Assembly: GCA_020445745.1 (NCBI GenBank)
Contig: JAGRGB010000046.1
Coordinates: 27,571-91,570 of the forward strand
Reading direction: 5' to 3'
Origin: Rhodocyclaceae bacterium
Lineage (GTDB): Bacteria > Pseudomonadota > Gammaproteobacteria > Burkholderiales > Rhodocyclaceae
Length of the DNA stretch: 64,000 bases
Position numbers and translations under genes: made by a program
Notes under the pieces: generated by a model
Told to the model about the DNA's origin: nothing
Seen by the model: only the letters and a program-made list of their open reading frames with translations
Databases searched by the model: none
Shown here: positions 1 to 28,182 of the stretch, piece by piece
How the letters are laid out: each line of letters opens with the position of its first letter
Position numbering within the stretch: the stretch's first letter is position 1

Positions 1-614
1 AGGGCGTGAACTACAGCCGCACCTTCGGCCTCGCCGAAGCCATCCACACGACTTCGCTGTCCCACAACGGCTCGCTGACCTATCACACCAGTCCGTCCGA
101 TTCGAGCAGCGGGTCGCTGGGCATCAGCGTCTCGGACACCCGCATCCGTGGCGATCGGGAATCCCAGTTCCAGATGCTGAACGTCCAGTTGAACGGTTTC
201 TGGAACCTGTCGCGTCGTTCGCAACTGAACGCCAACCTCAGCTACCAGAAAAGCTGGCGGGACGAGACCGAGGATACCGTCGAGGAGGATCCCTTCGACC
301 CGTTCGCCAGCGAGGATCGTAAGAGCGAGGACTCGTCCCTCAACGGCTCACTCAGCTACTACCTCGACCGCCCGTTCTCGGTGCGCGGCCTGCGTTATAC
401 CTTGCGCTACACCGCCGCCGAATCGAATGGCAACGAACGCGAGTTCGGCGTCCTCGATGGCGAGCGCGAACAGACCAGCCAGGATCTCGAACAAAACCTC
501 GACTATCGAATCGGGCGTCTCGGAGCGCGACTGCAGCTCCGGATCGCAGAGGTCGATGGCCGGAAAAATGCTGTACTTTTCTTTCGTGTCAGTAGAAGCT
601 TCGGAGGCTTCTAG
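1..614 (+). CDS. Outer-membrane beta-barrel protein, C-terminal part (5' end outside window)
   Basis: The frame is open from the first base and ends at TAG 612-614, so about 203 C-terminal residues are visible and the true start lies upstream. The visible part alternates polar and hydrophobic residues in strand-like stretches separated by acidic loops, and it ends in Phe after a strand reading RVSRSFGGF. A terminal aromatic residue is the usual recognition signal for outer-membrane insertion by BamA. Its position directly before triheme cytochromes suggests the porin of a porin-cytochrome electron conduit (MtrB/PioB- or OmbB-like). That role is inferred from context; no family-specific motif is visible. 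A 7-bp inverted repeat (593-613) lies over the last codons. Confidence 0.6.
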   Translation, partial: GVNYSRTFGLAEAIHTTSLSHNGSLTYHTSPSDSSSGSLGISVSDTRIRGDRESQFQMLNVQLNGFWNLSRRSQLNANLSYQKSWRDETEDTVEEDPFDPFASEDRKSEDSSLNGSLSYYLDRPFSVRGLRYTLRYTAAESNGNEREFGVLDGEREQTSQDLEQNLDYRIGRLGARLQLRIAEVDGRKNAVLFFRVSRSFGGF

Positions 615-703
615 GGAGTGGGGAGGCCGGTCACGACCGCCCGTGGCCGCGGATCCGTGCCGGTCGCAAGTCAGATTTACAACCTGAAATGAGGCATGCA
701 TCA

Positions 704-1129
704 ATGAGATTACGACACCCCAGGGCACCTTGGCGCAGCGCACTCGCGCTCGTCGCGGCCGTCTGGATCGGCAGCATCGGCACCTCTGGCGAAGCCCGCG
801 CTGAGTACGCGGACGTGGTGATCAACAATTACTCGGACGCGGCCGGCATGCGGCCGGTGATCTTCCCCCACTGGTTTCACCGCATTCGTTTCCGTTGCAA
901 GGTCTGCCATGCCGACCTGGGCTTCCAGTTCAAGGCCGGGGGCAACGAGATCAACATGGTGAAGATCATCGACGGCCAGTTCTGCGGCGCCTGCCACAAC
1001 GGTGACATCGCGTGGTCGGTCGAAAACTGCAACCTGTGTCACTCCGGCAAGCCCGGCACGCCGACGCAGGTCCATGAGAGCACGATCCAGAAGCTCGCCA
1101 TTCAACCCCAGGCAGGAGGCCAGCAATGA
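704..1129 (+). CDS. c7-type triheme cytochrome (module A)
   Basis: This is a small periplasmic electron-transfer protein of 141 residues. A signal peptide covers about residues 1-28, ending near GEARA. Three heme-attachment motifs follow (CKVCH, CGACH, CNLCH), together with extra histidines in FPHWFHRIRF that can serve as distal ligands, as in cytochrome c7-type triheme domains. The start at 704 is preferred over ATG 689 because GAGG at 691-694 sits nine bases before 704 and nothing similar precedes 689. The stop overlaps the next start (ATGA). The protein is closely similar to the one at 4167-4565, so the two are paralogues. Its role is probably to pass electrons across the periplasm to an outer-membrane partner. 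Confidence 0.88.
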   Translation: MRLRHPRAPWRSALALVAAVWIGSIGTSGEARAEYADVVINNYSDAAGMRPVIFPHWFHRIRFRCKVCHADLGFQFKAGGNEINMVKIIDGQFCGACHNGDIAWSVENCNLCHSGKPGTPTQVHESTIQKLAIQPQAGGQQ

Positions 1130-2049
1130 TCAGGACCCTGCGAAATCCGGCTGTCGCACTCGGTGCGCTGTGCTGCACGCTGTTCGCCACCGGCACCGCC
1201 CTCGCCCAGCAGGACAAGGGCAAGGCGGTCTACGACAAGGTCTGCGTCGCATGTCATTCGGCGGGCATCGCAGGCGCGCCCAGACTCGGCGACGCCAAGG
1301 CCTGGGCGCCGCGCATCAAGACCGGCATCGACACCCTGTACGGATCGGCCCTCAAAGGCAAGGCACCGGCGATGCCGGCGAAGGGCGGCGCGACCGACCT
1401 CCCCGACGCGGACATCAAGGCGGCGGTCGACTACATGGTGGCCGCGGCCAAGGACGGCGGCTCCGGCGCTGCGGCAACGGCACCTGCCGCGGCCGCACCG
1501 GCGGCTGCGGCGGCCGCAGCGACCAAGCCCCGGCCTGCCGCGCTGAGCTTCAACCGGCTGCTCAAGCCGGCATCCAAGCGCAACCCGCCGCCGCCGGAGG
1601 ACGGGATCCACGACCCGCAAAACGACGGCACCCACGCACTGCAGCCGCCGCTTCAGGTGTTCGAATCCCTGCCTCGCAGCAATGCGGGCAATCGTGTGGA
1701 CTGGGTCAAGGCACTCGACAACAACCTCATCGCGCCACGCTGGGATCGCACCGATCCGGCGGCAGCGCCGGTGGTGATGGACCTCAACATCGTGCGCGAG
1801 GTCAAGGGCTCGATGCCGGACGTGGTCTATCCGCACAAGCAGCATACGGCCTGGCTGGACTGCTCGAACTGCCACCCGCAGATCTTCATTCCGCAAAAAG
1901 GCGCCAACCAGATCAGCATGGCGGCGATCCTGCTCGGCCAGAAGTGCGGGGTCTGCCACGGCAAGGTCGCTTTCCCGGTATCCGAGTGCAGAATCTGCCA
2001 CTCGAAGAAGAAGAACGTGATGCCGGTCAAGAACGCCCAGGCGAACTGA
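1126..2049 (+). CDS. Fusion cytochrome: class I c-type domain plus c7-type triheme domain (module B)
   Basis: The protein has 307 residues. A signal peptide (about 1-27) is followed by a monoheme cytochrome domain with CVACH near residue 41 and a downstream Met-rich stretch that could supply the sixth ligand. An Ala/Pro-rich linker (about 113-138) leads to a triheme c7-type domain with CSNCH, CGVCH and CRICH near the C-terminus. It therefore carries four predicted hemes. The C-terminal half resembles the proteins at 3523-4170 and 27577-28182, which share a GNxVxWxKAL-like segment, the block MP-V-(Y/F)PH and the motif CxNCH. The start overlaps the stop of the preceding cytochrome. The fusion suggests a periplasmic shuttle joining a mobile monoheme unit to a multiheme wire. 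Confidence 0.87.
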   Translation: MIRTLRNPAVALGALCCTLFATGTALAQQDKGKAVYDKVCVACHSAGIAGAPRLGDAKAWAPRIKTGIDTLYGSALKGKAPAMPAKGGATDLPDADIKAAVDYMVAAAKDGGSGAAATAPAAAAPAAAAAAATKPRPAALSFNRLLKPASKRNPPPPEDGIHDPQNDGTHALQPPLQVFESLPRSNAGNRVDWVKALDNNLIAPRWDRTDPAAAPVVMDLNIVREVKGSMPDVVYPHKQHTAWLDCSNCHPQIFIPQKGANQISMAAILLGQKCGVCHGKVAFPVSECRICHSKKKNVMPVKNAQAN

Positions 2050-2055
2050 TCGACA

Positions 2056-2098
2056 GGCCACGGCCCGCATGCCACGCGATGGCCACTGGGCCGTGGCC
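2056..2098 (+). terminator. Inverted repeat just after the module A-B cytochrome pair
   Basis: A perfect 11-bp inverted repeat, GGCCACGGCCC (2056-2066) and GGGCCGTGGCC (2088-2098), is separated by 21 bases and starts six bases after the stop of the fusion cytochrome. No T-run follows, so it is not a standard intrinsic terminator. It could stabilise the 3' end of the message or act with Rho. Confidence 0.4.
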
Positions 2099-2601
2099 GG
2101 TCACCCTGCGGCGGTCACGGCGCAGGGCCGCTGCCCCGGTAGCAGCCGCCGCCGCGGCGAGCCCTCGCACATGGCGCTCGAGCGGGTCGCCACGCCCGCC
2201 GGCCGTGTGGCGCTGCCGACCGCACGGCGACCGAGGCGCCAATCCATGCGCGACGATCGCTACGGTAGTCAAGGTCGACGTGCGCCCAAGCAGCCTGGCC
2301 CGGGCGTCGCTCACGGGTGATCCGAGAATACGCGGACCGCAGGCCGATAGGGGCCCGCCGCGCTCAACATTCCGCAACATGCGAACGGTGCCCTGGCTGC
2401 GACGCGAGGTAGAATCGGCATGACGAGGCGCATTCGCCGCCCACTGCCGACGAAGTCGCGCCGGCGATCGTGGGCGAAGCCATCGGGGCACTGAAACCAA
2501 TCCGCAACGGTTCGATCTTAGAACCGTCGAACGAACACCGAGAATGTCCGCGCGGTGACGAAGCTTTCCCGGTCCGCGCGACATGATTTAGGAGTGCTGC
2601 A
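2099..2601. other. Intergenic region without a supported gene
   Basis: No open frame here has convincing protein character or a ribosome-binding site. The only structure seen is a pair of overlapping dyads about 75 bases before the next gene: ACGGTTC (2507-2513) with GAACCGT (2521-2527), and GTTCGA (2510-2515) with TCGAAC (2527-2532). The two cannot form at once. A promoter for the gene at 2602 is expected here, but no clear sigma-70 or sigma-54 box was found. Confidence 0.5.
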
Positions 2602-3504
2602 ATGTCAGTCAAACATGTTGCCGGTGTCGGACTCGCCTGGCTGGCGCTGGTCGGCGCCGCCAGTGCCGTCGAGGGCGAGACTGCAGCGACCCGCATGCAG
2701 GCCCAGACGGTCGATGTCGCACAACTCGAGAAGCGCTTCACGTCGGTCGGGACGCTGCTGACGACGTCGTCCGCCGCAAAGCAGATCGAAGCGAGTGGTG
2801 AACCCGAATCGATGCGCCGCCATGCCGATGCCAAACGGCTCTACCAGCAGGCCAGGGATGCTTTCGCCGCCGGCGACAACGCCACCGCGTCGCGCCTGCT
2901 CTCCGAAGCCAGCGTGACGATGTTCTCGGCGGTCAGGACCGCCGCTCCCGAGCGCATCAGTTCGCAGAAGGCGCAGACCGACTTCAACAACAAGCTGGAA
3001 AGCGTCAAGGCGCTGCTCGCCGCGCAAAAGCGGATCAGCGAGGAGAAGACCGAAGTGAAGGACGCCGCCGACAGCGCGCGCCAGATCGAGGGTCTGCTTG
3101 CCGAAGCGCAGCAGCAGGCCAACGCCAATCGCCTGACCGAGGCGCGGGCTACGCTGGAGCGCGCCTACCTGATGGCAAAGGCGTCGATCAGTTCGATGCG
3201 CACCGGCGACACCCTGGTCCGATCCCTGCATTTCGCGACCAAGGAAGAGGAGTATCACTACGAGCTCGACCGCAACGATACCCACCAGATGCTGATCAAG
3301 GTGCTGGTGGAAGACCGGAGCAAGTCGAACCCGTCGATGGACGAGCGCATGAGGGCCTTTCTCGAACGCGCCGGACAATTGCGCGGGCAGGCCGAATCGA
3401 GCGCCTCGCGTGGCGACTTCAGCGGCGCGATCCAGTTGCTCGAAACGTCCACCGCCGAGCTGGTCAAGGCGATCCGCAATGCCGGCATCTACATTCCCGG
3501 TTGA
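2602..3504 (+). CDS. Secreted alpha-helical protein of unknown function
   Basis: I do not recognise this 300-residue protein. It has a Sec signal peptide (about 1-22, ending GAASA). The rest is almost entirely helical, rich in Ala, Glu, Gln and Arg, with several TPR-like helix pairs such as ARDAFAAGDNATASRLL and a similar one near the C-terminus (SASRGDFSGAIQLLE). There is no Cys and no heme motif. AGGAG at 2590-2594, seven bases before ATG, supports the start. It lies between two sets of triheme cytochromes on the same strand. A periplasmic scaffold or assembly factor for them is a reasonable guess, but only from position. Confidence 0.8.
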   Translation: MSVKHVAGVGLAWLALVGAASAVEGETAATRMQAQTVDVAQLEKRFTSVGTLLTTSSAAKQIEASGEPESMRRHADAKRLYQQARDAFAAGDNATASRLLSEASVTMFSAVRTAAPERISSQKAQTDFNNKLESVKALLAAQKRISEEKTEVKDAADSARQIEGLLAEAQQQANANRLTEARATLERAYLMAKASISSMRTGDTLVRSLHFATKEEEYHYELDRNDTHQMLIKVLVEDRSKSNPSMDERMRAFLERAGQLRGQAESSASRGDFSGAIQLLETSTAELVKAIRNAGIYIPG

Positions 3505-3522
3505 GTCGGGAGTCCAGCTTAC

Positions 3523-4170
3523 GTGTCGCTCCGCCGGATCCTGACCACCCTCGCCGTTTCGTTGTTGTCGTCGGCAACGGCGTGGTCCGGCGAATGGGCG
3601 AAGCTTTCCGAGGACGGCGTCCACGACCCCCGGGGCCCGGCGATCGGGCTGCTGCAGCAGCCCGGCGACGCGTTGTCCAACCTGCCCGGCGACGGTGCCG
3701 GCAACCAGGTGCATTGGATCAAGGCGCTGCGATCCGGGGTGATCCGGCCACGCCCGAACATCGACCCCGCACGCGAAGACCGCAGGCTGGACAAGGATAT
3801 CTACCTCGATCTCTACGGCAGCATGCCGTCGGTCCGCTTTCCGCACCTGGCGCATACCGAATGGCTGGATTGCACGAACTGCCACGACCAGCTGTTCCTG
3901 CCCAAGCGTGGAGCCAACGGCATCAGCATGTTCCTGATCCTCCAGGGTCAGCAATGCGGTGTCTGCCATGGTGCCGTCGCCTTCCCGCTGACCGAATGCA
4001 GTCGCTGTCACTCGGTGCGGAACCACATCGCTCAGCGCATCGTCGCCGAGCTCGAAGCCGAAGAGGCGCGCAAGGCGGCAGGCGGGGGATCGAAGGAGGC
4101 CGGCTCCGCCGACGCCCCTCGCGGGGCCCCGGCGAAGCCGCCCAAGGACGCCCGGGGAGGCGCCCGATGA
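3523..4170 (+). CDS. c7-type triheme cytochrome with charged C-terminal tail (module B')
   Basis: The GTG start has GGGAG about ten bases upstream. The 215-residue product has a signal peptide (about 1-22) and three heme motifs (CTNCH, CGVCH, CSRCH). It resembles the C-terminal half of the fusion cytochrome at 1126-2049 but lacks that protein's monoheme domain. After the last heme it carries a tail of about 50 residues rich in Glu, Ala, Lys and Gly, a plausible flexible or docking segment. Its stop overlaps the next start (ATGA), so it is translated together with the module A paralogue. Confidence 0.87.
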   Translation: MSLRRILTTLAVSLLSSATAWSGEWAKLSEDGVHDPRGPAIGLLQQPGDALSNLPGDGAGNQVHWIKALRSGVIRPRPNIDPAREDRRLDKDIYLDLYGSMPSVRFPHLAHTEWLDCTNCHDQLFLPKRGANGISMFLILQGQQCGVCHGAVAFPLTECSRCHSVRNHIAQRIVAELEAEEARKAAGGGSKEAGSADAPRGAPAKPPKDARGGAR

Positions 4171-4565
4171 CCGGATCCGCGTCCCTGCGCGCCGCGCTCG
4201 CCGTGCCGCTGCTGGCGATCGCGCTGACGGTCGGACTCAGCGCCGAGTCGCGTGCCGAATACGCCGACGTGGTGCTCAACCGCAATGCCGAAAAGGAAGG
4301 CATGCGGCCGGTCGTGTTCCCGCACTGGTTCCACCGCATCCGTTTCCGCTGCAAGGTCTGCCACGCCGAACTGGGCTTCAAGATGCGGGCCGGCTCGAAC
4401 CTGGTGACGATGGGTGACATCATCGACGGCCGCTTCTGCGGCGCTTGTCACAACGGCCAGATCGCGTGGGCGCCGGAGAACTGCGATCTGTGCCATTCCG
4501 GCAAGCCCGGCCTGCCGCCGGGCATCTTCGGAGGACACGAGACCAATGGCCCGGGTATCTGGTAG
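4167..4565 (+). CDS. c7-type triheme cytochrome (module A')
   Basis: This 132-residue periplasmic cytochrome has a signal peptide (about 1-31) and three hemes (CKVCH, CGACH, CDLCH). The central segment MRPVVFPHWFHRIRF is nearly identical to the protein at 704-1129. A GGGGAGG ribosome-binding site lies six bases before ATG. The next gene starts inside its 3' end in another frame. The pair B'-A' here reverses the order of the pair A-B at 704-2049. Confidence 0.88.
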   Translation: MTGSASLRAALAVPLLAIALTVGLSAESRAEYADVVLNRNAEKEGMRPVVFPHWFHRIRFRCKVCHAELGFKMRAGSNLVTMGDIIDGRFCGACHNGQIAWAPENCDLCHSGKPGLPPGIFGGHETNGPGIW

Positions 4566-5475
4566 AGGCCTGCTCTTCTCGCTGCTCGTCATGCTGCTCG
4601 GCCCGGTCCCTGCCGCGCTCGGCGACGAGCCCGCGACCGTCGGCCCGGTCGACCGCTTGCTGCTGCGCGAGCAGTCGATCGGCGCCGGCTACTTCGTCGT
4701 GTCGGCCGAGGGTGCCGGCGGTTTTTCCGGTTTCATGAACCCGACATCGCTGGCCGCCGAAGGCAGCACGCTGTTCGTCGCCGATCAGGGATTGCGCCGG
4801 GTCTACCGGGTCGAACTTGACAGCCGCGAGGTCACGCCACTGGCTACGCTGGGCGGCGCCGCGCCGCGGCTGCGCATCGGCCTGGCACGCAGCTGGTTCC
4901 TGCTGCCGCCCGCCGGCAACGTGGTGCGCGAATTCGGGCCGGAGGGCGAACCGCGTGGCGAGTACAGCAACGTCGAACTGACCCAGGCCACCGACGTCCT
5001 TCGCGAGCCCAGCAGCGGACGGATCTGGATCTTCGACTTCGCGGGCACGATGCACGAGTTCTCGCCGGGCGGATCGCTGCTGCGCTCGCGCCGCATCCTC
5101 GCCGATCACGGCACCGCGATCCAGGCCGCGGCGGCCGGATCCCAGTTCATCTACGCGCTCGATCGCCACTGTGCCTGCGTCATCGAGCTCGACCATCACG
5201 GCTTGCCGCTGCGGATGATCGCCGATGGCGAGCTGGCTTTCGCGAGTGATCTCGCCGTCGATGGCTACGGCCGCATCTGGCTGAGCCAGCACGACCGGAC
5301 CCAGATCGTGATGATCGACAACACCGAGCGCGTCCATCACCTGGAACTCCACGATCTCGGACTCAATCTGGTGTCGGCCCTGACGATTGCCGATGGTCGC
5401 CTGTTCGTTGCGGATCCGACCACGGGCGCGGTCGTCGTCTTCAGTCTGTTGCCACCCGACCCGGGCGCCCAGTGA
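4546..5475 (+). CDS. Secreted NHL-type beta-propeller protein
   Basis: The start is ATG 4546, with GGAGGA at 4530-4535; the open frame continues further upstream but only as a shadow of the preceding cytochrome. The 309-residue product begins with a signal peptide (about 1-24) and then shows repeated blades such as GSTLFVADQGLRRVYRVEL and GRIWLSQHDRTQIVMID. These have the shape of NHL or SMP-30-like repeats, giving a six-bladed propeller. No catalytic residues stand out. NHL proteins often sit next to multiheme cytochrome genes in metal-reducing bacteria, which suggests a structural or scaffold role on the periplasmic or outer face. Confidence 0.82.
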   Translation: MARVSGRGLLFSLLVMLLGPVPAALGDEPATVGPVDRLLLREQSIGAGYFVVSAEGAGGFSGFMNPTSLAAEGSTLFVADQGLRRVYRVELDSREVTPLATLGGAAPRLRIGLARSWFLLPPAGNVVREFGPEGEPRGEYSNVELTQATDVLREPSSGRIWIFDFAGTMHEFSPGGSLLRSRRILADHGTAIQAAAAGSQFIYALDRHCACVIELDHHGLPLRMIADGELAFASDLAVDGYGRIWLSQHDRTQIVMIDNTERVHHLELHDLGLNLVSALTIADGRLFVADPTTGAVVVFSLLPPDPGAQ

Positions 5476-6545
5476 TTGCCGTGGATCGCACGCTGCGCTT
5501 GGCCCCCGTTCTGCTGGCGCTGGCTCTGGCAGCCTGCGCCAGCGCCCCGGCGCGGCTGCACCTGGGCGTCGGCGACGACCCGGGGCTGTCGCGCCTGATG
5601 TGGCCGCCCGGTCCCGACATACCCCGCTATCAGTTCGCCGGGCAACTGATCGGCGAGGAGAACTTCGTCCGGGACGAGGCCGCGGACGGCGCGCTGACCC
5701 GCTTCTTCCGCTGGCTGGTCGGGCTCTCCGACGAGCGGCCGAGGAGCCTGCAGCGACCGCAAGGGGTCGCGGTCGACGCCGACGGGCGCATTCTGGTCAG
5801 CGATGTCAGCCGGGCCGCGGTGTTCGTCTTCGACAACGTCGCCGGGGAACTGCGCATCCTCGAATACGCCTCCGGCCAGCGTCGCTTCGTCGCGCCGATC
5901 GGCATCGCCACCGACGGCGACGGCAGCTTCTGGGTGGCCGACGCCGAACTCGGAATCATTGCCCACTTGTTGCCCGACGGAACCACCCTGGCGCCGATCG
6001 GTGCCGGCGAGCTGGAACGGCCGACCGGCCTCGCGCGCGATCCCGACAGCGGTCGCCTGTACGTCGCCGACACCTATGGCCACGTGATCCGGGAATTCTC
6101 CCGCGACGGCGAGCCGCTGCGTACCTTCGGCAAGCGCGGCCACGACGCGGCCGGCTTCAACTACCCCACCCACCTCGCAATCCGCGATGGTGAGCTGTAT
6201 GTCACGGACACGATGAACAGCCGGGTACAGATCCTGCGTATCGATTCTGGTGAGATCCTGCGAAGCGTGGGGCGGCGGGGCCTGTACACAGGCAACCTGG
6301 TGCGCCCCAAGGGGGTTGCGACCGATGCCGACGGGAACATCTACGTGGTCGAGTCGCTATACGATAATCTTTTGATATTCAATAACAAAGGGCAATTTCT
6401 GATGCCCATCGGCGGCGTCGGCCACGAGGTCGGAAAGTTCTACCTGCCCTCGGGTGTCGCCGTTGACGACCTTGGCCGGATATTCGTCGCCGACACCTTC
6501 AATGGTCGCGTCGCGATTTTCCAGTATCTGGGAAACAACCAATAA
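5472..6545 (+). CDS. NHL-repeat outer-membrane lipoprotein
   Basis: The GTG start overlaps the previous stop (GTGA); a second GTG at 5481 is also possible. The 357-residue product has a lipoprotein signal with the lipobox LAAC near residue 22, so it is probably lipid-anchored. Clear NHL repeats follow, for example RPQGVAVDADGRILVSD, RPTGLARDPDSGRLYVAD, YPTHLAIRDGELYVTDT, RPKGVATDADGNIYVVE and LPSGVAVDDLGRIFVADT. They form a full propeller. It precedes the 11-heme cytochrome by one base. It is probably a surface or inner-leaflet partner of that cytochrome. Confidence 0.87.
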   Translation: MIAVDRTLRLAPVLLALALAACASAPARLHLGVGDDPGLSRLMWPPGPDIPRYQFAGQLIGEENFVRDEAADGALTRFFRWLVGLSDERPRSLQRPQGVAVDADGRILVSDVSRAAVFVFDNVAGELRILEYASGQRRFVAPIGIATDGDGSFWVADAELGIIAHLLPDGTTLAPIGAGELERPTGLARDPDSGRLYVADTYGHVIREFSRDGEPLRTFGKRGHDAAGFNYPTHLAIRDGELYVTDTMNSRVQILRIDSGEILRSVGRRGLYTGNLVRPKGVATDADGNIYVVESLYDNLLIFNNKGQFLMPIGGVGHEVGKFYLPSGVAVDDLGRIFVADTFNGRVAIFQYLGNNQ

Positions 6546-6546
6546 G

Positions 6547-9141
6547 ATGAGACCTGCCCAACCCCTTGTCGCCATCGCCCTCGCCCTGCTCGTCGGCACC
6601 GCGGTCGCCGAAAAGGTGTCGGACGTGCGTGCCACCAAGCACAACTTTTCGGCGACCGAAGTCGGCCGCACCACCGGGACGGCGCCATCCCGCAATGTCG
6701 TCGCCAGCACCGAGACCGAGGTCTGCGTGTTCTGCCACACGCCGCACGCTGCCAACACCGCGGCGCCCGCCCCGCTGTGGAACCGCGAACTCGGCTCCAC
6801 CGCCTACACCCCGTACACGTCGTCCAGCCTCGATGCCGAGGTCATCCGTGGCCAGGCGCTCGAGCAGCCGGGCGGCAGCTCGAAGCTCTGCCTGTCGTGC
6901 CACGACGGCACGCTGGCAATCGGCAACGTCAATGTGCAGGCCGGCCGCACCGACGTGTCGATCTCGATGACCGGCACCGCCGCCGACGGTTCGATGCCGG
7001 CCGGCGCGGGAGCGAGCACCGGGTTCACCCGCGACCTCGGCGTCGACCTGACCAACGACCATCCGATCTCGGTGACCTTCGACAGCACGCTTGCCGCCCG
7101 CGACGGCGAGCTGCGACCGGTCAATACCCAGCAGCGCTGGCCGGCGGACGGCTCGATCATCGGCGTGCGCTCGGCCGGATTCAAGCCGGCGGTGCCCCTC
7201 GAACCGACCGGCAGTCTCAACGAAGGCCAGGTGCAGTGCGCCAGCTGCCACGACCCGCACCTGTACGACACCGAGGAGTCCACCAAGGGGCCGCAGAAGT
7301 TCCTGCGCCAGAACCGCTTCCAGGTCGTCCAGCCGACCAACACCCACAATCCCGATTCCGACATCATCTGCCTGTCCTGCCACGACAAGAACCAGGGCAA
7401 CGCGAGCTGGGCCTTCTCGGTCCATGCCAACGAGATCACCGCAGACGAGACCTACAAGAGCGCTTCGGCCAGCCTGCGGGAATTTCCGGACGCCCAGCCG
7501 GTGTGGCGCGCCGCCTGCCTGAACTGCCACGACACCCATACCGTGCAAGGTTCCCGGCGCCTGCTGCGGGAAGGCACGGACAGCATCGCGACACCGAAGA
7601 CCGGCGGCAACCCGGCGCTGGAGGAGACCTGCTACCAGTGCCACACGACGACGGCGTCGAGCGTCGTCAACACCGCCAACGGCACCGTGCCGAACATCCA
7701 GAGCGACTTCAACCTGACGCGCCACATGCCGATCCGCTCCATCGAACAGCCTGCCGGCGAGGAGCGCCACGACATCAACGCCAACTTCAGCGACGGCCTG
7801 AACGACTGCACCGGTCCGACCTCGGCGTGCGCCAAGGACTTGATGGAGCCGCGTGCGACGCTCGGCGTCGCCAACCTCGACAACCGTCACGCGGAATGCA
7901 CCGACTGCCACAATCCGCACCGCATCATCCGCAGCGCCGGCGGCCTGCCGGGCACCCTGTCGCAGCTCAACACCTCGTCGGACAGCCGCGCCACCCACGA
8001 CCATTCGGCGCCGCACAGCAACGCGATTTCCGGTGCGCTGCGCGGCCAGTGGGGGGTCGAGCCGGTCTACGGCAGCGGTTCTTTCTTCTCGCTGCCGGTC
8101 AGCTACATCGTCAAGCGCGGCGACCCCGGCACCAACACCAGCACCGCCGCCGCCCAGCCCTACCTGACCCGCGAATACCAGATCTGCCTGAAGTGCCATT
8201 CGGATTTCGGCTACACCGACGACAACGTGCTGCCGAGCGGCAACACCCGGCCCCAGCTCGACAGCGCGCCCAGCCTGACCGGCATCAACCCGGACGGCCG
8301 CACCAACTTCACCCGCTACACCAATCAGGCCCGCGAGCTGCAGCCGACCAACGCGAGCGGCGCGACCGGCGCCGACGCCGCCTATTCGACGAACAATTTC
8401 CGCGGTTGGCACCCGGTGATCGGCGCGACCGGGAGAACTCTCGGCGTCCGCGGGATCACCGGCTCGTCGCCATGGCTGAGCCCGTGGACCAACAACGTCG
8501 GCACCCAGACGATGTACTGCTCGGACTGCCACGGCAGCAGCACCGGCAGTACCACGGTCGACCCAGGCTCCAATCCCTGGGGACCCCACGGCTCCCAGAA
8601 CAAGTTCATCCTGAAGGGGGTGTGGGGCCCGGGCATGGGCGGCACCGATCGCGACGGCAACCCGACCTCGAACTTCCTGTGCTTCAAGTGCCACGACCGG
8701 CCGGTGTACGCCGGCCGCAGCGACACCGGCCGCCGCACCGGTTTCTACGACGGCGTGCGCGGCAAGAACAATCTGCACAACTACCATACCGACAAGATTC
8801 AGCGGATCTTCTGCACCTGGTGCCACGTCGCGGTGCCCCATGGCTGGAAGAACAAGATGCTGCTGGTGAACCTGAATGACATCGGACCCGAGGCCGGCCA
8901 GAGTGGCAGCAAGGAGGTGTCGACCAGTGGCGACAGCGACAACTACAGCAACGGGCCCTACTACGCCCGGGCGAAGCTGAAGATCGTCAACTTCTCGCCG
9001 AGCGGCGACTGGGACTGGGACAACTGCGGGTCGGCCGGCAAGGGCGACCCGGATCGCATCCCGAGCAGCAACGGCAACACCTCGAACAACACCCAGGTGG
9101 GCATCGACTGGATGAAGAGCACTTGCAACAATCCGCCGTGA
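6547..9141 (+). CDS. Secreted undecaheme c-type cytochrome
   Basis: The 864-residue product has a signal peptide (about 1-21). Eleven CxxCH motifs run from residue 60 to about 756: CVFCH, CLSCH, CASCH, CLSCH, CLNCH, CYQCH, CTDCH, CLKCH, CSDCH, CFKCH and CTWCH. Several are followed by DxH or NPH, and isolated His residues that could be distal ligands are scattered between them. The spacers are long and rich in Asn, Thr, Ser and Gly, as in large extracellular multiheme proteins. It follows the NHL lipoprotein directly and overlaps the ResB-like gene. A terminal electron-transfer protein or a filament-forming cytochrome is the likely role; which one cannot be told from sequence alone. Confidence 0.9.
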   Translation: MRPAQPLVAIALALLVGTAVAEKVSDVRATKHNFSATEVGRTTGTAPSRNVVASTETEVCVFCHTPHAANTAAPAPLWNRELGSTAYTPYTSSSLDAEVIRGQALEQPGGSSKLCLSCHDGTLAIGNVNVQAGRTDVSISMTGTAADGSMPAGAGASTGFTRDLGVDLTNDHPISVTFDSTLAARDGELRPVNTQQRWPADGSIIGVRSAGFKPAVPLEPTGSLNEGQVQCASCHDPHLYDTEESTKGPQKFLRQNRFQVVQPTNTHNPDSDIICLSCHDKNQGNASWAFSVHANEITADETYKSASASLREFPDAQPVWRAACLNCHDTHTVQGSRRLLREGTDSIATPKTGGNPALEETCYQCHTTTASSVVNTANGTVPNIQSDFNLTRHMPIRSIEQPAGEERHDINANFSDGLNDCTGPTSACAKDLMEPRATLGVANLDNRHAECTDCHNPHRIIRSAGGLPGTLSQLNTSSDSRATHDHSAPHSNAISGALRGQWGVEPVYGSGSFFSLPVSYIVKRGDPGTNTSTAAAQPYLTREYQICLKCHSDFGYTDDNVLPSGNTRPQLDSAPSLTGINPDGRTNFTRYTNQARELQPTNASGATGADAAYSTNNFRGWHPVIGATGRTLGVRGITGSSPWLSPWTNNVGTQTMYCSDCHGSSTGSTTVDPGSNPWGPHGSQNKFILKGVWGPGMGGTDRDGNPTSNFLCFKCHDRPVYAGRSDTGRRTGFYDGVRGKNNLHNYHTDKIQRIFCTWCHVAVPHGWKNKMLLVNLNDIGPEAGQSGSKEVSTSGDSDNYSNGPYYARAKLKIVNFSPSGDWDWDNCGSAGKGDPDRIPSSNGNTSNNTQVGIDWMKSTCNNPP

Positions 9142-10163
9142 TCGATCCGGGCGAGAAGGACGCGCTGACCACGGGCGGCCCCGCGCTGCCCGTTTTGCTT
9201 CGCGGCGTCGCGGCGCTGGGCTCGCTGAAGCTCACGCTGACGCTGCTCGTCGTGCTGGTTCCGGCGATCGTGCTCGCCTACAACTCGGAGCAATGGCGCA
9301 GCTGGCCCCTGGCGCTGCCGCTGGCCGGGCTCGCGGTGAATCTGCTGGCCGCGCTGCTGAGCAATCCCGCCTTTCGCCGGCAGACCGCGCTGATCGTCTT
9401 TCATCTCGCCCTGGTGGCGCTGCTGCTGCTGATCGCGGCCGGCCGCATGAGCTACCTCAAGGGCACGCTCGAGGTCACCGAGGGCGCCTGGTACGAGGGC
9501 GGGGCGCTGACCTCGACCGACGCCGCGCGCTGGCACGCCGGCGACCTCGACCAGGTCCGCTTCACCAATCTCGGCTTCACCATCGACTACGCCGCCGGCG
9601 TGCGCCGCGGCCCGACCCGCAACCATGTGCGCTGGATCGACGAGCATGGCCGCGCGCGCGAGGCCGTGATCGGCGACCAGGATCCGCTGGTGATCGAGGG
9701 CTACCGCTTCTACACCAGCTTCAACAAGGGTTTCGCGCCGACCTTCGCGTTTACGCCGGCCACGGGCGAGACGATCGTCGGCGCCGTTCATCTGCCGTCC
9801 TATCCGATCCACCAGTACGAGCAGACCCGGGAATGGGCACTGCCGGGCACCCACCGCAAGCTGTGGATCCTGCTCGATTTCGACGAGACCATCCTCGACC
9901 CGGCGCAGCCTTCGGCGTTCCGCGTGCCGGCGGAGTACCAGGTGATCGTGCGCGACGACGACCGGCGCTGGGCACTCCACGCCGGCGAGGCCATCGACCT
10001 GCCCGAGGGCCGGCTCGAGCTGGCCGGCCTTCGCACCTGGATGGGATACAACGTGTTCTACGACTGGACCCTGCCGTGGCTTGCGGCGACCGCGGCGCTG
10101 GCGGTACTCGGCCTGGGATGGCACTTCAGCGCGAAATTCCGCCGCAGGGCCTGGGACGCCTGA
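9138..10163 (+). CDS. ResB/Ccs1-like cytochrome c maturation protein (short form)
   Basis: The GTG start overlaps the stop of the multiheme cytochrome (GTGA). The 341-residue membrane protein has three N-terminal transmembrane segments (roughly 28-50, 58-80, 88-110), a periplasmic domain of about 190 residues and a last transmembrane segment near 308-328 followed by a basic tail. That is the topology of ResB, the partner of CcsA in System II heme ligation. It is shorter than classic ResB proteins, which exceed 450 residues. His residues near transmembrane segments 3 (FHLALV) and 4 (GWHFSAK) may contact heme. It is adjacent to the ResC/CcsA gene, which supports the call. Confidence 0.82.
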   Translation: MIDPGEKDALTTGGPALPVLLRGVAALGSLKLTLTLLVVLVPAIVLAYNSEQWRSWPLALPLAGLAVNLLAALLSNPAFRRQTALIVFHLALVALLLLIAAGRMSYLKGTLEVTEGAWYEGGALTSTDAARWHAGDLDQVRFTNLGFTIDYAAGVRRGPTRNHVRWIDEHGRAREAVIGDQDPLVIEGYRFYTSFNKGFAPTFAFTPATGETIVGAVHLPSYPIHQYEQTREWALPGTHRKLWILLDFDETILDPAQPSAFRVPAEYQVIVRDDDRRWALHAGEAIDLPEGRLELAGLRTWMGYNVFYDWTLPWLAATAALAVLGLGWHFSAKFRRRAWDA

Positions 10164-10167
10164 GCGA

Positions 10168-10980
10168 ATGGAACGGGAACTGCAGATTCTCTGGGCGGCC
10201 ATCGTCGCCTACGTGCTCGGCGGCGTGCTGGCGATCTTCGGCGTGGCCCTCGGTCGCCGACGGGGCCACGTGGTGCTGGGCCTGCTGCTCGCCGGCCTGC
10301 TGCTGCATGCGCTATCCCTCGGACTCCGCTGGCAACGCCTCGACCATGGACCGTTCATCACGCTGTTCGAGATCCTGTCGTCGAACGTCTGGAGCCTGAT
10401 GCTGGTGTACCTGATCGCCTACTGGCGGATCCCCAAGATCCGGCCCAGCGCGGCGATCGTCATGCCGGTGATGTTCGTGCTGATGGGCTGGCTGATGCTC
10501 GCCCATCCTGGCGAGGGCCATTTCCCGCCGACCTACCGCACCCCCTGGCTGTTCATCCACATCGGCATGGCCAAGGTCTTCCTCGGCGCCACGCTGGTGG
10601 CCCTGGGCATCGCCGGCATCGTGCTGCTGCGCCGCTACCGCCTCGCCGTCCAGCGCTTCGCGTCGCTGCCCGAGGACCGCCGGCTGGACGAACTCGCCTA
10701 CCGCTTCATGGCCCTGGCGCTGGTGTTCGACACCCTGATGCTGATCACCGGCGCGATCTGGGCGCAGGACGCGTGGGGGCGCTACTGGGCCTGGGACCCG
10801 CTCGAGACCTGGTCCTTCGTGACCTGGCTGCTGCTCGCCTTCGCGATCCACCTGCGCCTCACCTACCGCCCGCAGCCGGTACGGGGCGCGTGGATGATCG
10901 TGGCGGTCTTCGTGCTGGCGTTCCTGACCTTCTTCGGTGTGCCGTTCGTCTCCGAATCTCCCCACAAGGGGGCGATATGA
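10168..10980 (+). CDS. ccsA: ResC/CcsA-like heme transport and ligation protein
   Basis: This 270-residue polytopic membrane protein carries the tryptophan-rich WWD motif (WGRYWAWDPLETW near residues 205-217), which binds heme in the HHP family. Conserved His residues lie in FIHIGMAK and in FAIHLRL. With the ResB-like protein it forms System II cytochrome c synthetase, which exports heme and attaches it to CxxCH motifs in the periplasm. The gene starts five bases after the ResB stop and overlaps the next gene. It is probably dedicated to the cytochromes just upstream. ccsA and resC are both used for this family. Confidence 0.87.
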   Translation: MERELQILWAAIVAYVLGGVLAIFGVALGRRRGHVVLGLLLAGLLLHALSLGLRWQRLDHGPFITLFEILSSNVWSLMLVYLIAYWRIPKIRPSAAIVMPVMFVLMGWLMLAHPGEGHFPPTYRTPWLFIHIGMAKVFLGATLVALGIAGIVLLRRYRLAVQRFASLPEDRRLDELAYRFMALALVFDTLMLITGAIWAQDAWGRYWAWDPLETWSFVTWLLLAFAIHLRLTYRPQPVRGAWMIVAVFVLAFLTFFGVPFVSESPHKGAI

Positions 10981-12314
10981 GGCCCTTCCCTCCCATCGAC
11001 GATGCCGGCCGGCGCCGGCACGCTCAGAACTGGATGGCGCTGGCCGCCGGGGCAGTCGCCGCTGCAGGGCTGTTCGCGGTCCTGATTGCGCTGGCGCGGG
11101 TTCCGGCGATCGGACGGCTGTTCCCCGGGGCGGAGTTCTACCGCGTCGCACTGACGCTGCACGTGACCCTGTCCCAGGGCGTCTGGTTCATGGCCTTTGC
11201 CGCATGCCTGTGGTCGCTCGCGACGACCCGGGGACCGACGCCGATCGACCGCCTGTGCCTGGCGGCGGCGGCTGTCGGGGCGACCGGCATCGCTTTGTCG
11301 GTCGGGGTCGGGGAACCGGTAGCGCTGATGAGCAACTACCTGCCGGTGCTCGATTCACGACTTTTCATCGGCGCCTACCTGCTGTTCGGGCTGGCGCTCG
11401 CGGTACGTGCCGCTCGCAGCACCCTGCCCTTGCCGCTGCGCCCGCCTGCCAGCCTTGCCGACGCCCGCTTGCTGGGCCTGCGGCTCGCCGCGATGGGATT
11501 CTGCGCATGCCTGCTGATGGCGCTCGCTGCCCGTCATGGCGTCGCCGACAGCGTCGACGGGCTCGCCTACTATGAGTCCGTGTTCTGGGGAGCCGGCCAT
11601 CTGTGGCAGTTCGTGCTCGTGCTGCTGATGATGGTGTGCTGGCTGGAGCTGGCGCCGCCCGATCCGCGGCGGCTCGCGCCGGCAATGCCGGCCGGCCTGC
11701 TGGTGCTGGCCGCGGCGCCGATCATCGCCGGCATCGCACTGGCGATGTACCGCAGCCCCCTCGACACCGATTACGTCACCGGCTTCACGCAGTTGATGCA
11801 ATGGGCCTCGTGGCCGGCGCCGGTGATCCTGTTCGTGCTCCTGCTGCGCGCCAGTCCGCGCGCGATGCCCGGTTTCGGCCTGTCGGCCGTGCTGTTCGTG
11901 CAGGGCCTCGTGATCGGTGCGCTGATCGACGGCCAGACCACCCTGGTCACCGCCCACTACCACGGCACGATCGGTGCGGTGACGCTGGCATTCATGGCGA
12001 CCGCGCTGCAGTTGCTGCCGAGACTCGGCGCGACCGCCGTCGGCGCAGGCGCGGCGCGCAGCCAGCTGGCCTGCTACGGCTGGGGCATCATGCTGATGAT
12101 GCTCGGCCTCGCCGGCGCCGGGCTGATGGGCGCGCCGCGCAAGACGCCCGGGGACCTGGGCCTCACCTGGAGCGTCGAGACCGTGTCGCGGATCATGCTC
12201 GGCATCGGCGGCCTGCTCGCCACGATCGGCATTCTGATGTTCGCCTACCTGATTCTGGTCCGGCTGTGGCCGGTCGCGCTCGGACGAGGAATCGAGAATG
12301 AAGCAGCCCGCTGA
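10977..12314 (+). CDS. Heme-copper oxidase subunit I-like membrane protein without the CuB His pair
   Basis: The 445-residue product has about 11-12 transmembrane segments. Candidate heme ligands match the subunit I pattern: His62 (LHVTLSQ), His208 (GAGHLWQF) and the His-x-His pair 327/329 (TAHYHGTIG). The double His that ligates CuB on helix 7 of oxidases and the metal-binding residues of nitric oxide reductases are not seen in the matching stretch (about 225-290). No subunit II or III gene lies nearby. It starts inside the CcsA stop (ATGA), so it is coupled to cytochrome maturation. A heme-binding membrane electron carrier or a heme-handling protein is more likely than an active oxygen reductase. 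Confidence 0.75.
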   Translation: MRPFPPIDDAGRRRHAQNWMALAAGAVAAAGLFAVLIALARVPAIGRLFPGAEFYRVALTLHVTLSQGVWFMAFAACLWSLATTRGPTPIDRLCLAAAAVGATGIALSVGVGEPVALMSNYLPVLDSRLFIGAYLLFGLALAVRAARSTLPLPLRPPASLADARLLGLRLAAMGFCACLLMALAARHGVADSVDGLAYYESVFWGAGHLWQFVLVLLMMVCWLELAPPDPRRLAPAMPAGLLVLAAAPIIAGIALAMYRSPLDTDYVTGFTQLMQWASWPAPVILFVLLLRASPRAMPGFGLSAVLFVQGLVIGALIDGQTTLVTAHYHGTIGAVTLAFMATALQLLPRLGATAVGAGAARSQLACYGWGIMLMMLGLAGAGLMGAPRKTPGDLGLTWSVETVSRIMLGIGGLLATIGILMFAYLILVRLWPVALGRGIENEAAR

Positions 12315-12936
12315 CAAGCGTCGCGACCGACGCCCGCTGGCGCTGCTGCTGACCGTGGCCGGAGTCACCCTCGGCGGTCTGCTGGTAGCCCGTTACGACG
12401 ACATCGCGGCCGGCGTGCAGTCCCTGCGCCAGCGTGGCCACGCCGAGATGCAGCGCCGCGGCGAACTCGAACAGCGCTTCCGCCAGGGCGTCGTGATGCT
12501 TCATGCGCGCCGCTACGACGAGGCCGCCAAGGCCTTCCACCGGGTGCTGCAGCTCGCCCCGCGGCTGCCGGAAGCACACGTGAACATGGGCTTTTCGCTG
12601 GTCGGCCTGGCGCAATGGCCGGCCGCCCACGATTTCTTCGCGACCGCCATCGAACTCAATCCGGAACAGGCCAATGCCTACTACGGCCTGGCGGTGGCCC
12701 TCGAGGGGCTGGAAGACCTCCCCGGAGCGATCGGAGCGATGCGCACCTATGTCCATCGCAGCGGCCCCGAGGATCCATTCCGTCGCAAGGCCGAGGCTGC
12801 CATCTGGGAGTGGCGCGCGCGCCTCGAGCAGGCAAGGCCGCAGATCGAGGTGCCGGCGAACGCTTCGCCGGCCCGGCCGCCAACCGGCGCACCGGGCAGC
12901 TCGAGCGGCAGCACGGACGGAAAGGACCCCGGCTGA
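12298..12936 (+). CDS. Membrane-anchored TPR protein
   Basis: The 212-residue protein has one transmembrane segment (about 14-32), then TPR units: RQGVVMLHARRYDEAAKAFH, then LPEAHVNMGFSLVGLAQWPA, then EQANAYYGLAVALEGLEDLP. A Pro/Ser/Gly-rich tail ends the chain. The gene overlaps the oxidase-like gene by 17 bases and is the last gene of the cytochrome operon. TPR proteins of this shape often hold apocytochromes during heme attachment (compare CcmI), but the role here is inferred. A 16-bp perfect palindrome (12948-12963) lies 11 bases past the stop. Confidence 0.82.
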   Translation: MKQPADKRRDRRPLALLLTVAGVTLGGLLVARYDDIAAGVQSLRQRGHAEMQRRGELEQRFRQGVVMLHARRYDEAAKAFHRVLQLAPRLPEAHVNMGFSLVGLAQWPAAHDFFATAIELNPEQANAYYGLAVALEGLEDLPGAIGAMRTYVHRSGPEDPFRRKAEAAIWEWRARLEQARPQIEVPANASPARPPTGAPGSSSGSTDGKDPG

Positions 12937-27576: not shown

Positions 27577-28182
27577 TCAGTTCGGCATCACCTGCCCGGG
27601 CTGCGGGACACTGTGGCAGCGGAAGCAGGCCCGGTGAGTAATGAAGGCCACGCGATCGTGGCATTTGCCGCAGAACCTCCCGCGGAAGATGTCCTCCATG
27701 CGGATCTTCGCGGTGCCCGCCTTCTGGGCGAAGATCGCCGGATGGCAGTTGCTGCAGGCGAGCCACTCGGTGTGGGTCTTGTGGGGGAAGCGCACGTAGG
27801 GCATGCCCTTGGTGTTGCGCATCAGGACGTCGAGGTCGAGCGGCAAATAGGTCTTGTCCCCGGTCAGTACCTCGCGCGGTGCAATAATTCCTTCCCGCAG
27901 GGCCCTCGCCCAGTCAACCTTGCCGTTCTGGTCCAGAGGAAATCCCTGCAGGGCGTCCTCCGGCTTCTGCAGCCGCAGGTAATCGGGATTGGCCCGGTCG
28001 TAGGAATCGAACTGCGGATCCACTACCGGCCCGGGCGGGCGCACCGGCGTCGCGGCAGGCTGGGTCTCGTCCGCCGTTTCCGGGATCTTGGCCGGGCGCA
28101 GGAAACCTGCCACCGGATCGCTGACGAGCAACGCGCACACCAGCACGAACGTGACCGGCAATCGTTTTTCTACTGGGGACAT
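27577..28182 (-). CDS. c7-type triheme cytochrome (third module B-like copy)
   Basis: The 201-residue secreted protein has an N-terminal signal (about 1-26). Its heme motifs are CSNCH, CGKCH and CFRCH. It matches the fusion cytochrome at 1126-2049 in GKVDWARALREGIIAPR, then MPYVRFPHKTHTEWLACSNC. The start at 28182 gives the signal peptide; the frame continues far upstream only as a shadow of the GGDEF gene. It stands alone on the minus strand, divergent from the heme-linked GGDEF-EAL gene with 111 bases between starts. Confidence 0.88.
   Translation of the reverse strand: MSPVEKRLPVTFVLVCALLVSDPVAGFLRPAKIPETADETQPAATPVRPPGPVVDPQFDSYDRANPDYLRLQKPEDALQGFPLDQNGKVDWARALREGIIAPREVLTGDKTYLPLDLDVLMRNTKGMPYVRFPHKTHTEWLACSNCHPAIFAQKAGTAKIRMEDIFRGRFCGKCHDRVAFITHRACFRCHSVPQPGQVMPN

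Follow-up and report, generated by a model that had tools for sequence, protein, structure and literature searches.

The window analysed here, a stretch of 64,000 nucleotides from a Rhodocyclaceae bacterium (contig C187, positions 27571-91570, part of a 4.88 Mb genome), opens with a run of genes for multiheme cytochromes, propeller proteins and cytochrome-building proteins, and it raises the question of whether this locus is an undescribed electron conduit, as a sequence-only reading had proposed, or a form of a known one. In content and order the genes match the published cluster named uetABCDEFGHIJ (PMC12575090), so the conduit itself is not undescribed, and the locus is a testable variant of the known Uet conduit with cytochrome-building genes, not a new system. 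Uet of Tenderiales consists of the tetraheme cytochrome UetA, the prolyl isomerase UetB, the barrel UetC, the triheme cytochromes UetD, UetE and UetG, the NHL proteins UetH and UetI and the undecaheme cytochrome UetJ, and it is also found in six Gallionella, four of them with the barrel (PMC10734462). UetJ and its porin have been described in Leptothrix relatives (PMC13386937). 'Ca. Tenderia electrophaga' carries three triheme genes (Tel_16515, 16520 and 16530) with a TPR gene (16525), which belong to the most highly expressed genes of that organism, and an undecaheme gene (Tel_16545) (PMC5371394). The members of the block that lie in the window are as follows.

1..614 (frame 3-614), + strand: C-terminal part of a UetC-type outer-membrane barrel; full protein 734 aa, start at C187:25980; Pfam OMP_b-brl match below cut-off, assigned by its relatives
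704..1129, + strand: A1, triheme c7-type cytochrome, UetD-like; 3 CXXCH; TIGR04257 63.8 bits (cut-off 40)
1126..2049, + strand: B1, UetE-like, a triheme domain joined to a monoheme cytochrome c domain; 4 CXXCH; PF13442, PF14522; TIGR04257 62.7 bits
2602..3504, + strand: heme-less helical protein at the UetF position, its place between B1 and B2 conserved; YfdX match weak and below cut-off
3523..4170, + strand: B2, triheme cytochrome, UetG-like; 3 CXXCH; TIGR04257 59.4 bits
4167..4565, + strand: A2, fourth triheme cytochrome, not found in three-triheme clusters; 3 CXXCH; TIGR04257 66.6 bits
4546..5475, + strand: propeller-type protein at the UetH position; no Pfam match; ScyE of NCBIfam matched weakly (E 3e-4, short of the cut-off)
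5472..6545, + strand: NHL propeller lipoprotein at the UetI position; PF01436 E 3e-36; LAAC lipobox by eye
6547..9141, + strand: UetJ, 11-heme cytochrome with an OmcE-like N-terminus and a signal-like start; 11 CXXCH; match to 7tfs E 1e-16
9123..10163, + strand: short ResB; PF05140 41.2 bits (cut-off 24.6); the only ResB of the genome
10168..10980, + strand: CcsA; PF01578 109.5 bits; CcsB model 148.5 bits, below the NCBIfam cut-off of 187.6
10977..12314, + strand: OX, a heme-copper-oxidase relative (COX1-like); PF00115 40.3 bits (cut-off 34.8); no His-His pair where that of CuB is expected
12298..12936, + strand: membrane-anchored TPR protein; matches TPR models

The block comprises 17 genes on the + strand, and the window cuts into it: on the contig it begins some 6 kb before the window. 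Upstream lie, in this order and on the same strand, UcytX (four CXXCH), UNHL (an NHL lipoprotein, its lipobox judged by eye), UcytY (four CXXCH), a PpiC-type prolyl isomerase and the beginning of the 734-aa barrel. These upstream parts, together with the gene at 2602-3504, were missing from the earlier gene list, which otherwise stood: the barrel end, four small cytochromes (3, 4, 3 and 3 CXXCH), the 11-CXXCH cytochrome, ResB, CcsA, the oxidase-like protein and the TPR protein are all present on the + strand. The full barrel, which could have proved to be an unrelated transporter or receptor, is heme-less and conserved with the block. Two propellers had been named; the lipid-anchored second one is clear, and the first is weakly recognised. 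The "many" four-base overlaps came to four of 11 junctions, and three further junctions overlap by 17-20 bases. Downstream of the block, at about 13799, lies ccmF of System I. A promoter and terminator scan of positions 600-2650 gave no useful site: its three hits, all on the minus strand, were a promoter-like site at 2583-2612 and two terminator-like sites within B1.

The likeness to Uet of Tenderia and Gallionella extends to a tetraheme cytochrome, a prolyl isomerase, a barrel, triheme cytochromes around a heme-less gene, two propellers and an 11-heme cytochrome in the same order. UetA (UcytY), UetB and UetC follow each other as published, the barrel being assigned by conservation, and UetD-, UetE- and UetG-type trihemes stand around the gene that we assigned to UetF by position only. 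Counted in 25 full-length relatives (30 rows, less five that were truncated, split or not UetJ), UetJ has exactly 11 CXXCH in all 25. We file the core of the block as Uet by its content and order, matched against published descriptions. Unlike published Uet, the block has four triheme cytochromes instead of three, a second OmcE-like tetraheme and an NHL lipoprotein upstream, and ResB, CcsA, OX and TPR downstream. Membership in the MtrCAB/MtoAB group was rejected: an MtrA/DmsE-type decaheme was not found, and the highest score with the DmsE family model was 40.4 bits (UetJ) against a cut-off of 192.2.

Conservation of the block across genomes, which the earlier reading had proposed to check, was borne out. 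The barrel occurs in nine of 81 genomes searched, the present one included, and all eight relative loci fetched (L014-L021) keep the gene order up to their contig ends, one (L019) in rearranged form; the contigs of L014 and L018 end early, and L021 starts within the barrel and gave no BLAST match to the first propeller. When 150 genomes of the phylum were searched with TIGR04257, 22 matches came up, 16 of them over the cut-off including the present genome. The clusters of the other 15, all from outside the class of the window, keep the order and all have the prolyl isomerase, the barrel and at least four trihemes, with ResB in 14, CcsA in 12, OX in 11 and TPR in eight; profiles used for this were built partly from the same 15 loci, and contigs end before CcsA in L129 and L133, before OX in L134 and within OX in L122, L123 and L132. 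Within the class, the UetJ profile at E 1e-100 matched 40 of 369 genomes, the present one included, and 20 loci were fetched from the other 39. The barrel is present in 17 of these 20; 14 have three trihemes, four have four and two have none; ResB occurs in 17 (within 300 bases of UetJ in 15), CcsA in 15, TPR in 12 and OX in one; ResB-CcsA-TPR stands behind 12 of the 20 loci. In the relatives fetched, the genes stay together as one porin-cytochrome-propeller block that carries a System II pair of its own. In the accounts consulted, the known carriers of the conduit are iron oxidisers and a cathode bacterium that is uncultivated; to these come the 40 class genomes and, with parts of the cluster, the named isolates Aromatoleum toluolicum T and Noviherbaspirillum denitrificans TSA40, which make genetics possible. 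The block from A1 to TPR was also seen in a metagenome-assembled genome (L040, VEPL01000029.1) titled MnB_19, Mn-Betaproteobacteria-3, which may stem from a manganese enrichment.

What, then, do ResB and CcsA do behind the conduit? Both families exceed their Pfam cut-offs, as in System II cytochrome c maturation. The module differs from System II in its short ResB, in a CcsA below the NCBIfam CcsB cut-off, in the TPR protein and oxidase relative attached to it, and in the presence of System I beside it. In the whole genome, ResB occurs once, in the block, and PF01578 has four matches, two of which are CcmF and the CcsA of the block. We surveyed 60 chosen genomes, 45 with uet or UetJ and 15 barrel-less ones of the same family (out of 72 such). 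At E 1e-3, ResB was found in 39 of the 45 uet genomes (34 of the 39 over the cut-off) versus none of the 15 barrel-less ones (Fisher p 1e-9, uncorrected for kinship); CcmF was found in 43 of the 45 and in all 15. Four of the six genomes that missed ResB (G121, G181, G192 and G375) show it by the family profile, in G035 the contig ends before it, and in G416 none was found in the stretch. In 36 of these 39 genomes a ResB is found no more than about 6 kb away on the contig of UetJ, the exceptions being G005 and G106, where contigs break, and G423, where the two are 37 kb apart. Some loci have genes inserted between UetJ and ResB, and in Sulfuritalea-type loci (L036 2588-7102, L032 1264-4283) such genes lie between UetJ-like cytochromes and ResB, one being carbamoyltransferase-like by eye.

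A general System II pair that came to stand beside uet by chance would be compatible with the wide spread of both families and with the further ResB elsewhere in G521 and G281, the two in G014 and the second one, below cut-off, in G001. Against chance stand the single ResB of the present genome and the distribution within the family, where ResB occurs in seven of eight uet genomes and none of the 15 barrel-less ones, each of them with CcmF; we regard a chance neighbourhood as improbable. From the linkage of ResB to uet one would expect a maturation route specific to certain cytochromes, in cells equipped with System I as well. Passages of two papers on related subjects make no mention of ResB, and the novelty of the module is provisional.

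The oxidase-like subunit, OX, belongs to the subunit I family of heme-copper oxidases. Its profile aligns with the genome's own COX1 half at 18.2 bits, over the HxH motif and the following Arg and not over the His-His pair. An OX profile search of 15 sequences gave a good alignment only to this COX1 half and none to NorB or CcoN; no meaningful alignment came from comparing the profile with that of NorB of this genome, a protein named by eye, and searches of the PDB with OX, as a single sequence and as a profile, gave no match. Ninety-six OX sequences were aligned after two short ones had been left out; at least five genomes appear twice in this set, under different locus ids. All 96 sequences have H62, H208, H327 and H329. 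A His-His pair between H208 and H327 occurs in a single sequence, the lone OX of L089, and is absent from the other 95, among them all 46 that come from blocks. The CuB site of heme-copper oxidases has three His, of which OX keeps H208; the assignment of these His to heme or to CuB follows what is known of that family. An active oxidase or NO reductase was rejected for want of the His-His pair. Because the pair is missing in 95 of 96 relatives and in all 46 from blocks, OX is probably not an oxidase and would be an oxidase-fold protein without the catalytic copper site.

OX and TPR are encoded in one frame in eight of the 15 loci that hold both, a fusion that we read as a sign of joint work. 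OX matches of about 140-190 bits that coincided with TPR were set aside as coming from the TPR tails of fused queries, and a tail-free profile was used instead. In a scan of named genomes with the OX profile, a set thus chosen by OX, 80 of 188 relatives were kept; 30 of these stand with ResB, CcsA or TPR (15 of the 30 with at least two triheme matches) and 50 stand without any. The lone OX records come from Thiodiazotropha, Sedimenticola, Magnetococcales, Nitrospirae and others.

For the role of OX we lean to heme handling. The main rival is a redox role, in which OX would be an inner-membrane b-type protein linking the respiratory chain and the triheme cytochromes, with TPR holding the partners together. 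The four retained His could still bind heme, and apart from OX no quinone-linked inner-membrane protein is apparent in the cluster. Two findings speak against this role. Nineteen of the 20 class-level loci lack OX, 12 of them with ResB, CcsA and TPR still in place, so electron flow cannot generally need it. Lone OX genes lie near oxidase-assembly-like genes (SCO1-like in 28 and CtaB-like in 24 of the 49 listed out of 50 lone loci, L042-L101; names by eye). We hold the redox role to be unlikely, while still the strongest competitor to heme handling.

UetA (UcytY) resembles the OmcE filament chain of Geobacter sulfurreducens, with E 3.6e-25 against PDB 7tfs and 2.2e-24 against 9yuq; the match of UcytX is weaker (4.8e-13), as is that of the N-terminus of UetJ. 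In 22 of 22 UetA, which had been selected for four CXXCH, four further His align with the heme His of OmcE, giving eight heme His in all. One of these four further His is replaced in UcytX in eight of eight sequences, a difference from OmcE. In OmcE, a heme ligand is shared between neighbouring subunits (PMC12954529, PMC9473688). This likeness suggests that UetA may polymerise into a filament. The osc (omcS-companion) nanowire assembly cluster of Geobacter has a prolyl isomerase, channel-like proteins and a propeller beside a filament cytochrome, and the present block resembles it at the level of that description, not of compared sequences. A further OmcE-like cytochrome lies outside the block at C147:135680-136501 of the same genome.

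Taken as a whole, the locus is probably a Uet-type extracellular electron transfer locus with its own cytochrome maturation module. The triheme cytochromes would ferry electrons across the periplasm, and the barrel, propellers and prolyl isomerase would form the outer-membrane passage and assembly site. UetJ and the OmcE-like UetA would work on the outer side of the cell, where UetA may form a filament. Heme would be attached to the cytochromes of the cluster, UetJ first, by ResB-CcsA together with TPR and the CuB-less OX, while System I would serve the rest of the cell. The sequences show which genes are present and in what order, their conservation, the heme motifs, the occurrence of ResB together with uet, the fusion of OX with TPR and the loss of the His-His pair; from these we infer the locations, the flow of electrons and its direction, the filament, the client of the module and the span from the inner membrane to the outside, which the sequence-only reading had also proposed. 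More tentatively still, Uet may be a conduit around an OmcE-like surface filament with its own assembly line of short ResB-CcsA and TPR, to which one lineage has added a former oxidase subunit, now without CuB, that holds or reduces heme to load the 11-heme UetJ; we offer this fuller picture as a possibility of low weight.

Several observations weigh against the reading as a Uet locus with its own maturation module. L019 has a block without UetJ at that place, with A1, B1 and the YfdX-like gene behind TPR and UetJ 21-30 kb upstream. L019 and L097 both keep ResB-CcsA-OX-TPR in a block without UetJ, which sits elsewhere in those genomes, so UetJ need not be the client of the module. L124 has ResB, with no CcsA, OX or TPR in the roughly 5 kb behind it, and L171, L185 and L186 show no ResB within the fetched stretch. 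OX is lacking from nearly all class-level loci, as given above. The first propeller (4546) is weakly recognised as NHL, the match to Tenderia is one of published descriptions, and the reading draws on sequence. Our confidence in the combined statement is limited to "probably" because L019, L097 and L124 weaken UetJ as the sole client.

The direction of electron flow is not decided by the sequence. Outward transfer to a mineral or an electrode, in place of uptake, would agree with OmcE being an extracellular cytochrome of a metal reducer (PMC12954529, PMC9473688) and with the RuBisCO family being represented in the genome by one weak match of 51 bits. The published Uet carriers, in contrast, are cathode and iron oxidisers (PMC10734462, PMC12575090, PMC13386937), and we place outward transfer somewhat below an even chance.

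Two further observations concern the surroundings of the block. Upstream of it, a gene at L003 5416-7488 encodes a DUF5666 protein whose long tail consists of repeated acidic-basic units. A fifth, lone triheme cytochrome (TIGR04257 63.8 bits) lies at 27577-28182 on the - strand, beside a Crp/Fnr-like regulator and a GGDEF-EAL-like protein, both named by eye.

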